NCBI GenBank assembly: GCA_947444305.1
Contig: CANEZP010000010.1
Coordinates: 1-64,000, forward strand
Reading direction: 5' to 3'
Length of the DNA stretch: 64,000 nt
Source: Pseudobdellovibrionaceae bacterium
GTDB taxonomy: Bacteria; Bdellovibrionota; Bdellovibrionia; Bdellovibrionales; UBA1609
The notes under the pieces were generated by a model. It was given only the letters and a program-made list of their open reading frames with translations. It was not told the DNA's origin and searched no databases. The position numbers and the translations under genes are program-made. Shown one piece after another: positions 20,172 to 25,040 of this stretch. How positions within the stretch are numbered: position 1 is the stretch's first letter; every line of letters begins with the position of its first letter.

Positions 20172-22391
20172 TTACTCCGCAAAAATAAGCTCGACCGTTT
20201 CGGGTAAGAGATCTTTGAGCGCGGGAAATTTTTCGACCAGTTCATCACGCGGAAAAGTGCGCACCTCGGTGCCTTTGGGCCACAAGAACGGATTAGTTTG
20301 GAAATCCTGTTGCTCGGACTTAACGATCTCGGTCCAAACGGGGAGGGCCGCGCTCGCACCCGTTAAACCCATCGGTGTGTTGTCGTCGTAGCCGACCCAC
20401 ACGACCGTTAGCAAACGCGAACTGAAGCCCGCCATCCAAGCATCTTTCGTGTCGTTCGTCGTCCCCGTTTTGCCGGCGTAGTCTCCGGTCAAGCCCCAGG
20501 CCCGTGATGCGCGCGCGGTGCCGGTGTCAATGGATTGCCTCATCATGCCGACGAGAACGGCGGTGGGTACGGGTGGCATTTCGGCACGGTTCGAGGGCAC
20601 GCGTTCGAAAAGAACTTCCCCCGTGTGGCCTTCAACACGCGTGACCGTGTGGATGAGATCGCCCACGCCCATGCGGCCGAGCGTGGTGTAACCTTGCGCG
20701 ACTTCCCAAAGCGAAAGTTCGAACGCGCCGAGGGTTAGGCTCGGCAACATCGGAACGGTGGTGTTGATGCCGGAGTTTTTAATCGCGTCGCCGACGGCGC
20801 TGAGCCCCGCTTCTTGTCCCACTTTGGCGGCGGGAATGTTCATCGACTGCGCGAGCGCGTAGAAGTACGGAACGGGCCCGTGCGTTTTACCGTCGTAGTT
20901 TTTTGGCTTCCAATTTTGTTTATGAACTTTCCATTCGAAGGGTTCGTCGACGATCGTGGTTAGCGGATCGTGACCTTTGTCTTGCAGCGCGGGCCAGTAA
21001 ACAAAAGGCTTTACGATCGAGCCGACTTGCCGGCGGCTGGCGAAGGCGCGGTTGTACTGCGTGGCGCGGAAATCCCTGCCGCCCGTGAGCGCCAGCACCT
21101 GCGCGCTCGCGAGATCAACCGTCATCGCCGCGACCTGTAGCGGCTGCTTCGAAGGTTTCTTCACTTTCTTTTCGACGGCGTCGATGACCTTTGTGATCGC
21201 GGTCACCATGTGCGTTTGCACTTCGGGGTCGAGGGTCGTGTAAATGCGCGCGCCGTTGGGCACGTCGAACTCCCACGCTTGGAATTCGCGAAGCGCACTG
21301 AACACGAAATACGGAGCATTGGCTTTGCGGTCGGCACGCGGCGGTTTAGGCAACGGGGATGCGGCGGCGGTTTTCATCTCGGCTTCGTTGATCATGTTGT
21401 CGGCAACCATGCGGTTCAGCACGAGCTGCCGGCGTTCTTTCGCGGGGCGCGGGTCTTTAGTGAACGGCGAATACTTTCCGGGGTTGTTGATGATCGCGCC
21501 GATCATCGCGCACTCTTGCAGGTTTAGTTGCGCAATGGGTTTATCAAAATAGTAATCGGCCGCGCTGCCGAAGCCGCGCACTTGGTACGGACCGTTTTGT
21601 CCCATGTAAATCACGTTTAGGTACATCTCGAAGATTTGGTCTTTGCCGAGTTGCGATTCGAGCATGACGGCCAAGATTTGCTCTTGCAACTTGCGGCGAA
21701 TGGTTTTTTTCGGATTTAGGAAAAAGTTTTTGACCAGTTGCTGCGTGATCGTGCTGCCGCCCTCGGCAAAACGCCTGGCGCGCAGATTACGAATCACCGC
21801 GCGCATCGTGCCCGTGGCACTTACGCCCCGGTGCTCAAGAAAATCACGATCCTCGATCGCGGTCACGGCTTGCAGACAGTAAAGGGGGATCTCGCTCAGC
21901 GGGGTATTGAATTGCAGAATAGGCTGGGCGTCGTAAAATTGCGTGATGAGATGCGGGTATAAAGACTGAAACGCGACTTCAACCCAAGGGTCGCCGCGCC
22001 ACACTTCCTGAATCCAACCGCCTTCGCCCCAGCCGACGATCAACTTATCCCGTTTGAGGTAGAGACAATTCGTCGAAGTGTCTTTGAAGGCCACGCCGGT
22101 TTGGCGCTGGCAATTCTCGGCGTCACTGAATTCGTAATCGCGGCCGCTTTGCAAGCCACGCTTTTCGAATTCTTCGAGTAACGCCTGCTGCGGCATTTTT
22201 CGCCCCGCCGAAAGGGGGAAGCCTTGTGAATAAAGTTCGAGCGGGGGAAGAACCCAGCCTTTTTCCAAGCGTTGGTCGATCAAGCCCTGCAGAGAAAACG
22301 CGGTGGTGATCAGAACGGCAACGAGGATCAGCAACAGCGCCGTTAGGCCGAGCAAAATTTTTTTGGTGCGGGTCATGTTCGCAATGGTCAT
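20172..22391 (-). CDS. Class A penicillin-binding protein (PBP1-type)
   Basis: A bifunctional peptidoglycan glycosyltransferase/transpeptidase anchored by one N-terminal membrane helix (KILLGLTALLLILVAVLITTA). The glycosyltransferase domain has AIEDRDFLEHRGV, GGSTITQQLVKN and EMYLNVIYMG. The transpeptidase has SxxK in GSIVKPF (about S458), SxN in AQSMNIP and KTGT in AGKTGTTND. Overall it resembles PBP1b more than PBP1a. The start is uncertain among ATGs at 22412, 22391 and 22376; 22391 is used here. It is divergent from the DUF507 genes with only about 50 bp between starts. Confidence 0.93.
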   Translation of the reverse strand: MTIANMTRTKKILLGLTALLLILVAVLITTAFSLQGLIDQRLEKGWVLPPLELYSQGFPLSAGRKMPQQALLEEFEKRGLQSGRDYEFSDAENCQRQTGVAFKDTSTNCLYLKRDKLIVGWGEGGWIQEVWRGDPWVEVAFQSLYPHLITQFYDAQPILQFNTPLSEIPLYCLQAVTAIEDRDFLEHRGVSATGTMRAVIRNLRARRFAEGGSTITQQLVKNFFLNPKKTIRRKLQEQILAVMLESQLGKDQIFEMYLNVIYMGQNGPYQVRGFGSAADYYFDKPIAQLNLQECAMIGAIINNPGKYSPFTKDPRPAKERRQLVLNRMVADNMINEAEMKTAAASPLPKPPRADRKANAPYFVFSALREFQAWEFDVPNGARIYTTLDPEVQTHMVTAITKVIDAVEKKVKKPSKQPLQVAAMTVDLASAQVLALTGGRDFRATQYNRAFASRRQVGSIVKPFVYWPALQDKGHDPLTTIVDEPFEWKVHKQNWKPKNYDGKTHGPVPYFYALAQSMNIPAAKVGQEAGLSAVGDAIKNSGINTTVPMLPSLTLGAFELSLWEVAQGYTTLGRMGVGDLIHTVTRVEGHTGEVLFERVPSNRAEMPPVPTAVLVGMMRQSIDTGTARASRAWGLTGDYAGKTGTTNDTKDAWMAGFSSRLLTVVWVGYDDNTPMGLTGASAALPVWTEIVKSEQQDFQTNPFLWPKGTEVRTFPRDELVEKFPALKDLLPETVELIFAE

Positions 22392-22441
22392 GAGGCTCTC
22401 ATCCCTTGACATTAGGGGCGCCGCTGACTTTAGTCAAAGGC

Positions 22442-22723
22442 ATGAAAATCTCTGAAAAACAAATGAAGCGTATGGCCTCCGCCATCATGAACGGGCTCAA
22501 GTCACAGCACTCGATCGAAGTCTTCAAAGAAAAAGAGGAAGTCGTTCTCGCGCGCGCCGAGGCGCTGATCCGCGCCGACTTCGCCCGCGAATCCGCCCTC
22601 GATCAAGAAGTGCATAAAATGATGGATGATCTTGAACGGCAAAGCGCCGGCGCTTTTGAACGTTACAAAATGTTCCCGATGCTGAAGAAGCGTTTGGCGA
22701 AAGAAAAGGGGATTGTTCTATGA
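22442..22723 (+). CDS. DUF507 family protein, first copy
   Basis: 93 aa, charged and helical, with no membrane segment or signal peptide. MKISEKQMKRMASAIMNGLKSQ matches the beginning of DUF507 proteins, as does the second copy downstream. The ATG at 22442 is used because the longer ORF start overlaps the divergent PBP gene. The stop overlaps the next start as ATGA. Function of the family is unknown; pairing and coupling suggest a heterodimer. Confidence 0.75.
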   Translation: MKISEKQMKRMASAIMNGLKSQHSIEVFKEKEEVVLARAEALIRADFARESALDQEVHKMMDDLERQSAGAFERYKMFPMLKKRLAKEKGIVL

Positions 22724-22995
22724 TTCTCAGCGAAGACCGGGTCTCGCACCTCGCCCGCTTGGTGGTCGACGGTATCTGGAACGATGATCTCGTTGACTAC
22801 ACCGACGACGACGCCGCATTGCGCGCCGCTAAAAAGGGTTTGAATGAGTTCGTGAAGATCGTCGAAGAGGTTGATAAGAGTGTCTCCGAAAAGGTCGCCT
22901 CATTAAAGCGCGGCGTTCCCGAAGGTAGTCCCGAATGGGACATCATGTACGGCAAATACTTTGAAGAGGAGATGAAGAGACGTGGCACAGACTAA
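22720..22995 (+). CDS. DUF507 family protein, second copy
   Basis: 91 aa. MILSEDRVSHLARLVVDGIW is the characteristic DUF507 start, and the C-terminus (SPEWDIMYGKYFEEEMKRRG) is also typical. It overlaps the first copy by 4 bp and the GroES gene by 14 bp, so all three products should be made in a fixed ratio. Known members are found in Deltaproteobacteria-type and Aquificae-type genomes; no biochemical function is established to my knowledge. Confidence 0.8.
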   Translation: MILSEDRVSHLARLVVDGIWNDDLVDYTDDDAALRAAKKGLNEFVKIVEEVDKSVSEKVASLKRGVPEGSPEWDIMYGKYFEEEMKRRGTD

Positions 22996-23515
22996 AAAGA
23001 AAAAAACGGTAGCGAAGAACAAACCCAGCGCGAAGGCAAAGACGCCCGCGAAAGCTCCGGCAAAAAAAGCGGCACCGAAAGTCGCCGCGAAAGCGGTAAA
23101 GAAGCCCGTAAAAAAAGCGATGAATAAGGCCGTCGCGCTCGTTAAAAAAATGGCGAAGAAAGCCACCGCCGCCGTGACGTCTTCGGCCTCGCCGGTGAAG
23201 AAAGCTTCCTCCGCGCCGCTGATCCCGAGTTCTTTTCAGCCGCTCGATGATCGCTTGATCATTTCCGTCGAGCCCGCGGCCGAAAAAACCGCCGGTGGAC
23301 TTTTCATCCCCGACACCGCGAGTGAACGTCCGTCACGCGGCACCGTGCTCGCGAAGGGACCCGGCAAGCGCAATAAAAAAGGCATGATCCGGCCGCTCGA
23401 CGTCGCCGTGGGCGACACCGTTCTGTTTCCGCAGTTTGCGGGGCAAAAAATTGAGATCGGCGCTAACGAATTTTTAATCCTCCGCGAAGACGAAATCCTC
23501 GGGATCACTACTTGA
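22982..23515 (+). CDS. groES: GroES co-chaperonin with a histone-H1-like N-terminal tail
   Basis: 177 aa from a GTG start. Residues 1-80 are Lys/Ala/Pro repeats (KTPAKAPAKKAAPK, KKPVKKAMNK), like the tails of histone H1 and bacterial H1-like proteins. Residues 83-177 form a complete GroES: FQPLDDRLIISVEP, mobile loop EKTAGGLFIPDTAS, then ERPSRGTVLAKGPG and the roof and C-terminal strands FLILREDEILGI. Ordinary GroES is about 95 aa, so the tail is additional. No groEL is adjacent. The tail could bind nucleic acid or polyanions. The GroES part is clear; a working role with GroEL is an inference. Confidence 0.9.
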   Translation: MAQTKKKKTVAKNKPSAKAKTPAKAPAKKAAPKVAAKAVKKPVKKAMNKAVALVKKMAKKATAAVTSSASPVKKASSAPLIPSSFQPLDDRLIISVEPAAEKTAGGLFIPDTASERPSRGTVLAKGPGKRNKKGMIRPLDVAVGDTVLFPQFAGQKIEIGANEFLILREDEILGITT

Positions 23516-23567
23516 CTGTAAGAGGCCCGGTGCTAGGCTAGACGCCAATCTTACGGGAACGGGTGTG

Positions 23568-25040
23568 ATGCGAAAAAACTTAAACGTTTTAAGCACTCTT
23601 AGTTATCTTCTTGGGTCTTTACTTTTAATTTCTACATTGTCGATTCCGGGTGCGAACGCAGACATTGAGTGGAGCGGTATTTACCGCATCGAAGGCAACG
23701 CGATTCACAATTCGGAACTCAACGACAAAGGCCGTGATCTTGGTTACGGCCTGCACACGCTGTTGCTTCGTCCGAAGATCGTCGCGGGTGACGGGTTGAC
23801 CATTCAAGGTCAGTTCAACATTTTTAATTCGGCCGGTTACCCGAACTCGCAACTTGGACAAGTTTGGGGATCGGGCGTGAACAACGGTTCGCCGCAAAAC
23901 AGCGACAACACGGGTCCCAATTCCAACGCGGTTTCCGATACGCAAAAAGCCGAGACGATCGAAGTGTCGCAACTGTATCTCACGCTCAATCACGAATACG
24001 GCCAGCTATTGGTCGGTCGTGCGCCCATTCATTTTGGCTTAGGCATGACCCACAACGCGGGCCGCGGATTGTTCGATCACTGGTACGACACGCGCGATCT
24101 GGTCGGTTACAAATTTATCGTCGGCAATCTCTACTTCTTGCCGATGATCGGTAAGGTGAACGAAGGCGGGTTGAACCGCACCGACGACATGACCGACTAC
24201 ATGATTCAAGTTCAATACGAAAATCCCGAGAGCGATATCGAGATGGGCGTATTCTACCAAATGCGCAAAGCCGGCGATCAAGCGAGTGATGCACCGACTC
24301 CCGCCGCGGCCAATCCCGGTGCGCTCGGTGGTGTCGGCGCGCTTAACGATGCCGAACTCGATACCAAGACGGTCAACGTCTACGTATTGAAAGATACCGA
24401 ACGTTTCCGCGCGGGTCTTGAGGCCTCGTTCCTCAGCGGCGAAACCGGCGTGCGCACCGCCGGCGGCGAGAAAGTGACTTACGATGCTTTCGCGGTGGCG
24501 GCCGAATTTGAATTTCGTCCCGAAGCCAGCAAATGGAAATACGGATTAAAAGCGGGTACCGCCAGCGGTGACGATCCCACGACCGACGCAAAATTCGAAG
24601 GTTTCATCTTCGATCGCAATTACGACGTCGGCTTCTTAATGTTCAATCATCCACTCGGGCAGGCCGACTTCTTGCGCACCGGTGTGGTCACGGGCGACGT
24701 TCGCGACGCGACGACCAACGCGGTCAACTCACCCGACACCGAAGCGATCAGCAATGTTTTGTACGTTGCACCCACGATCAAGTACGCATTCAGCGATCGT
24801 TGGTCGCTCGACAATACGGTCATGACCGGATTTTTGGGTACGAATCCCATCGCCGGCCGCAGCGTAGCCAAAGACTTTGGCTACGAGTGGGACATCTCGG
24901 TCAATTTCAATCCGCGCAAGGGAGTGACTTGGGTCAACCAAGCGGGCCTGCTTTTTCCCGGTGACACCTGGAAGGGCGGCGGCCTCTACGATTCCTCCTT
25001 CGCCTACGGCTTCTCCACCAAAGCCGCGATCAGCTTCTAA
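23568..25040 (+). CDS. Porin-like outer-membrane beta-barrel protein
   Basis: 490 aa with a signal peptide ending near ANA|DIEW. The mature protein has repeated amphipathic strands (GLTIQGQFNIFNS, SQLYLTLNHEYGQLLVGRAP, YDAFAVAAEFEFRP) and ends in an aromatic residue (TKAAISF), as outer-membrane barrels do. The size fits a 16-18 strand porin. The ATG at 23568 is used rather than the GTG just before it. Substrate unknown. The gene is followed by a 19-bp repeat array. Confidence 0.75.
   Translation: MRKNLNVLSTLSYLLGSLLLISTLSIPGANADIEWSGIYRIEGNAIHNSELNDKGRDLGYGLHTLLLRPKIVAGDGLTIQGQFNIFNSAGYPNSQLGQVWGSGVNNGSPQNSDNTGPNSNAVSDTQKAETIEVSQLYLTLNHEYGQLLVGRAPIHFGLGMTHNAGRGLFDHWYDTRDLVGYKFIVGNLYFLPMIGKVNEGGLNRTDDMTDYMIQVQYENPESDIEMGVFYQMRKAGDQASDAPTPAAANPGALGGVGALNDAELDTKTVNVYVLKDTERFRAGLEASFLSGETGVRTAGGEKVTYDAFAVAAEFEFRPEASKWKYGLKAGTASGDDPTTDAKFEGFIFDRNYDVGFLMFNHPLGQADFLRTGVVTGDVRDATTNAVNSPDTEAISNVLYVAPTIKYAFSDRWSLDNTVMTGFLGTNPIAGRSVAKDFGYEWDISVNFNPRKGVTWVNQAGLLFPGDTWKGGGLYDSSFAYGFSTKAAISF

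Follow-up and report, generated by a model that had tools for sequence, protein, structure and literature searches.

The window analysed here is a 64-kb stretch of DNA (positions 1-64,000 of contig CANEZP010000010.1, assembly GCA_947444305.1) from a Pseudobdellovibrionaceae bacterium of the order Bdellovibrionales. On its forward strand, an open reading frame at 22982-23515 with a GTG start encodes a 177-residue protein, which we call GroES2, in which a basic tail is followed by a complete Cpn10/GroES domain. The gene is the fourth in a row consisting of a divergent PBP1-type transglycosylase/transpeptidase gene (20172..22412, reverse strand; PF00912, PF00905 and TIGR02074), DUF507a, DUF507b, groES2 and an outer-membrane-protein-like gene directly downstream (23565..25040, forward strand; TIGR04551 below cut-off at 3.7e-17 and a weak Alginate_exp match). 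DUF507a (22442..22723, forward strand; the longest reading frame opens at 22406) covers positions 1-93 of the PF04368 profile and, like the PBP1 gene, is syntenic in relatives, while DUF507b (22720..22995, forward strand) covers positions 93-181 and overlaps the start of groES2 by 14 nt. An AGGAG at 22967..22971 on the same strand, within the 3′ end of DUF507b, is the likely ribosome-binding site of groES2 as read from the sequence, and Shine-Dalgarno (SD)-like sites are found in orthologues. DUF507 is a single 182-residue domain in Pfam and in a crystal structure from Aquifex (PMC10439177). The window (22442-22995) and most of the order carry it split into two genes with a 4-nt overlap, and in one relative (G021) it is fused in a single frame of 213 residues.

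The tail occupies residues 1-84 at the N-terminus of GroES2 (22982..23233, forward strand), as delimited by composition, orthologous tails and the AF2 model, and consists of 29% Lys, 26% Ala, 10% Pro, 10% Val, 10% Ser and 6% Thr, with no Asp or Glu and a net charge of +24. This is not a chance composition. The best 80-residue stretch of GroES2 carries a net charge of +24, compared with a mean of -0.2 (sd 4.1) over 15,560 80-residue windows from the predicted genes of the 64 kb and a maximum of +14 in the next best gene. The remainder, residues 85-177 plus the stop codon (23234..23515, forward strand), is the GroES domain, assigned by PF00166 and by its match to solved GroES chains; residues 85-175 score 92.3 bits against Pfam Cpn10 (cut-off 21.1), spanning profile positions 2-92 of 93. 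In the AF2 model the domain blocks have pLDDT values of mostly 90-96, and the tail, at 51-60, is without secondary structure. The model matches solved GroES chains with TMt 0.85 (8wuc) and 0.87 (5opx), and Foldseek E-values against GroES chains reach down to 3e-10. Domain score, fold and mobile-loop motif all place the protein in the GroES/Cpn10 family, and its tail, which is long, disordered, rich in Lys, Ala and Pro and poor in acidic residues, is of the bacterial H1-like kind. A sequence-only reading of this DNA had described a histone-H1-like tail on a GroES, and both parts are real; its description of the tail as almost only Lys, Ala, Pro and Val was too strong, as these four make up 75% of it and 89% is reached only when Ser and Thr are added. 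That reading left unstated at which end the tail lies, and missed the order-wide paralogy, the fixed locus, the correspondence to the published second groES of Bdellovibrio, the removal of its tail by re-annotation and the basic roof turn described below.

The genome also contains a separate, tail-less groES. In the same assembly (97% complete), a plain groES of 100 residues lies on another contig, directly before the sole groEL. Among 59 genomes searched, 54 have one GroEL match over the family cut-off and none has two; the other five have no match over the cut-off, and some of those assemblies are fragmentary. With a single GroEL per genome, the plain GroES (GroES1) and GroES2 appear to share it.

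The tailed form is present in about 35 of the 59 relatives if two copies truncated at contig ends are included. Among 241 genomes drawn from across the phylum, the window's order is represented by 74, of which 56 hold two GroES (a hand count of the table). Of 20 further genomes checked, 18 have two copies, each with one frame of about 100-124 residues and one of 171-249 residues; one of the long frames contains a stop. Outside the order, none of the 12 genomes in the phylum sample with a second GroES match has a tailed one. Second, tail-less GroES occur in some genomes of other families of the phylum (L099-L106; families f12, f13, f16 and f17), and open frames of 157-195 residues at L086-L088 are merely stop-to-stop read-back ahead of a normal GroES start. 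The window's order includes Bdellovibrio, and a scan of named genomes, with the Bdellovibrio-group alignment as query, found the tailed gene in a B. bacteriovorus strain. A tree of 101 GroES domains, E. coli GroES included, has few columns and an unsure inner order, and places all full-length plain GroES, including that of E. coli, on one side of a branch with support of 100/99. Two rows labelled as plain on the GroES2 side are GroES2 copies cut by contig ends. The tailed protein is a distinct paralogue, GroES2, found in most genomes of Bdellovibrio's order, and the window protein belongs with the GroES2 of Bdellovibrio (bd3349) both by its branch apart from GroES1 and by its shared locus. On one contig labelled as a Streptomyces griseus MAG (L124), a tailed GroES2 sits within the complete Bdellovibrionales gene order, so the assignment to Streptomyces probably stems from a mistake in binning or labelling. 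In another genome, an in-frame TAA in the second GroES (G134:C6:115769-116068) may mark a decaying groES2 or an assembly error. A genome-wide search for other H1-like tails, with this tail as query, missed even GroES2 tails already known from two other genomes, probably owing to composition filtering.

The tail has been discarded once in the literature. The B. bacteriovorus GroES2, bd3349, was annotated as 224 residues; Lambert et al. (2012, PMC3464611), citing "lots of repetitive sequence", moved its start to Met108 and kept 117 residues. On this view the protein begins at an internal Met and the lysine-rich stretch is an untranslated repeat. Besides the repetitive upstream sequence, its support is that only the last 117 residues match other GroES (PMC3464611), and a Bdellovibrio-type gene that we retrieved (L063) fits the published figures exactly, with 224 residues, Met108 and 117 residues remaining; from the identity of these numbers, it is bd3349 or a near copy. 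The discarded stretch nevertheless evolves as coding sequence. In three close Bdellovibrio-group pairs it shows 17-21 synonymous against 4-7 non-synonymous changes (dN/dS 0.05-0.09), with an excess at third codon positions (binomial p 7e-8 to 4e-10), and dN/dS over the tail codons is 0.14-0.20 in three other pairs. The tail, whose absence from orthologues had been considered, was instead seen in 67 distinct orthologues, in 44 of which it contains no internal ATG. Just 1 of the 67 combines an internal start with an SD-like site, compared with 55 of 67 that have an SD-like site ahead of the tail, so a start downstream of the tail is not borne out.

The upstream start is itself conserved: in nearly all loci that have DUF507, it lies 8-17 nt inside the 3′ end of DUF507b. 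Where DUF507 has been lost, as in most Bdellovibrio-type loci, groES2 is kept and a GAAAGGA precedes the same GTG. Tail composition is also constant in DNA of 34-63% GC, in which the letters vary and the charge stays. On dN/dS, third-position bias and the survey of orthologue starts we reject a mis-annotated start, which is now hardly credible. By its pattern of substitution and its starts, the tail is genuine, translated and under selection, which contradicts the published re-start and corrects the decision that hid it in the model predator B. bacteriovorus.

The GroES domain was compared between 57 GroES2 and 43 GroES1 sequences, with residues numbered after E. coli GroES by alignment. The mobile loop (E. 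coli 16-33; 23273..23326, forward strand) is conserved in GroES2, with G23 in 54 of 57, G24 in 56 of 57 and hydrophobic residues at 25-27, giving a GroEL-binding tripeptide in the form GG-[LI]-[YIF]-I, which reads GG-LFI in the window. The roof hairpin (E. coli 45-57; 23360..23398, forward strand), which forms the top of the GroES dome, has a basic turn, N-K-K-G in the window. Across GroES2 the turn has K50 in 46 of 57 and K51 in 53 of 57, followed by G-H/R/K, with R45 in 41 of 57. GroES1 follows the pattern E/D50-D51-G-K (E/D50 in 38 of 43, D51 in 30 of 43), and the turn in E. coli is E50-N51-G-E53. Mean net charge over roof residues 46-56 is +3.6 in GroES2 vs. +0.7 in GroES1, the whole domain being at -0.8 in both.

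That GroES2 uses GroEL is, we infer from the sequences, well supported. The PDB chains that match GroES2 best by sequence are Cpn23 and Cpn20, which cap Chlamydomonas ClpP (7ekq), and groES2 is unlinked to groEL, either of which could suggest a protein that caps a ring other than GroEL, in the manner of Cpn20-type proteins on chloroplast ClpP, or a free DNA-binding protein outside chaperonin work. Retention of the mobile loop and its hydrophobic tripeptide argues against both, and the 7ekq match is probably a sign that the sequence is typical of Cpn10 in general, making this explanation very improbable.

The tails themselves vary widely. In 60 tails, with lengths by our own start calls (the caller favours Ala at position 2), length ranges from about 45 to 215 residues; the lower figure is about 45 instead of 56 because the start of one gene (L008) was probably called 11 codons early. 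All are strongly basic, with a net charge of +0.27 to +0.55 per residue. The roughly fourfold range in length, a sequence that can hardly be aligned, and the rise of Lys content and length as genome GC falls (Spearman -0.66 and -0.42) would also fit a solubility or charge brush, that is, a loosely constrained tail without a specific partner. Such a brush accounts poorly for the near exclusion of acidic residues (96 of 7205), for the retention of the tail in every intact GroES2 read across the order, and for the matching basic change in the roof turn, and GroES1, present in the same cells, does without such a tail. We consider it rather improbable. Order-wide conservation together with the separate basic change in the roof makes a functional role likely enough to be worth testing.

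Every groES2 locus that is long enough to judge has the gene order of the window or its version without DUF507. The same outer-membrane-protein family lies 3′ of groES2 wherever the sequence reaches that far, and just a few nucleotides away in Bdellovibrio. Dependence of GroES2 on DUF507 was considered and dropped, as Bdellovibrio without DUF507 keeps a tailed GroES2 and some genomes with DUF507 have no GroES2. The genomes without groES2 mostly keep PBP1, DUF507a, DUF507b and the outer-membrane protein joined, and at the DUF507 loci of such genomes (L130-L142) the outer-membrane gene usually comes straight after DUF507b and sometimes overlaps it. The joined neighbours imply that groES2 either had an ancestral slot between DUF507b and the outer-membrane gene and was lost from it more than once, or entered this slot before the radiation of the order. 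Its loss in several genomes with the neighbours intact makes groES2 dispensable.

This constancy, with PBP1 before groES2 and the outer-membrane protein closely after it, suggests that GroES2 could serve the envelope, folding or handing over clients such as the co-located outer-membrane protein while its tail binds acidic precursors, acidic phospholipid, LPS or the acidic outside of GroEL in place of nucleic acid. The persistence of PBP1, DUF507 and the outer-membrane protein together after the loss of groES2, however, indicates that the envelope genes do not need it, and the GroES2 sequence shows neither an apparent signal peptide nor a membrane segment. Such an adaptor is unlikely, though a more serious contender than a charge brush.

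We propose that GroES2 is an alternative GroEL lid, whose tail and basic roof would tether the capped chaperonin to a polyanion, and we give this proposal an even chance. Most likely, GroES2 assembles into a ring and competes with GroES1 for capping the one GroEL of the cell. Up to seven tails, of +24 each in the window protein, would then combine with the Lys-Lys roof turn into an electrostatic anchor outside the cage, and the anchor would hold the GroES2-capped chaperonin on a polyanion. Charge-based binding to a polyanion is to be expected of seven basic tails and a basic roof on a ring that caps GroEL. The GroEL cage holds roughly 60 kDa, and seven tails of 215 residues would come to well over 100 kDa, so at least the long tails should lie outside it. 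The leading candidates for the polyanion would be nucleoid DNA, nascent or ribosomal RNA, and polyphosphate; the present evidence would suit DNA, RNA, polyphosphate, GroEL's own acidic surface and membranes alike as putative partners. A counter-point to the polyanion anchor is that groES2 sits with envelope genes (PBP1 and an outer-membrane protein) instead of chromatin genes. GroES is not mentioned in the main text of a proteomics paper on the Bdellovibrio nucleoid, which used attack-phase cells, in which groES2 is barely expressed.

In B. bacteriovorus, bd3349 is expressed late in predation (2-4 h) and derepressed without Bd0743 (Lambert et al. 2012, PMC3464611), which fits a role around septation and progeny maturation. 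If these data apply more widely, anchoring would take place in one growth phase, that of septation and progeny maturation. The heptamer, the capping of GroEL, the position of the tails outside the cage, the polyanion target and the timing are the parts of this model that we infer. In its broadest form, the tethered-lid proposal would give one order of bacteria two interchangeable lids on a single GroEL, the tailed one, with its basic roof, recruiting the chamber at a defined point in the cell cycle to the nucleoid, to RNA or ribosomes, or to polyphosphate; we hold this tentatively, as somewhat less probable than the tether itself. If the tail does recruit GroEL to a polyanion, the choice of lid would direct one GroEL to different places, and the two-lid system would amount to a spatially addressed chaperonin. 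With the tail restored, the second groES of B. bacteriovorus, hitherto puzzling and expressed late, becomes a case in which chaperonin targeting can be tested.

Several known systems share parts of this arrangement. T4 gp31 is an alternative lid for the host GroEL, and its structure (1g31) is a distant fold match to the GroES2 model; gp31, however, enlarges the cage and has no basic tail, whereas the GroES2 roof is of normal length and carries basic residues. AlgP and PhaF of Pseudomonas, the known parallel for such an anchor, also have a disordered Lys/Ala/Pro tail on a folded domain and are believed to link granules with DNA. Polyphosphate granules are not properly spaced without the KPAA tail of AlgP, and AlgP tail peptides bind DNA (PMC9239181). 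Their tails are C-terminal tandem KPAA repeats on a helical domain with no chaperonin part, in contrast to the GroES2 tail, which is N-terminal and lacks tandem KPAA.

H. pylori HspA is likewise a GroES with an acquired low-complexity extension and a binding role apart from folding; in the literature searched, no further GroES extension was met to which a role is ascribed. Its extension is C-terminal, short, binds metal (nickel) and sits on the cell's sole GroES, whereas the GroES2 tail is N-terminal, long and basic, and sits on a second GroES. No lysine-rich tail on a GroES is described in the open-access literature searched. Closest is bd3349 itself, from the same clade, with the same locus between PBP1 and the outer-membrane protein, a single GroEL and a second groES; it differs in that the published protein was cut to 117 residues and the tail rejected, and in that the DUF507 pair, kept in the window genome, is absent from Bdellovibrio. 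That Bdellovibrio has a second groES was already known, and what is new relative to the literature searched is its tail, the conservation of that tail across the order, the fixed locus and the change in the roof.
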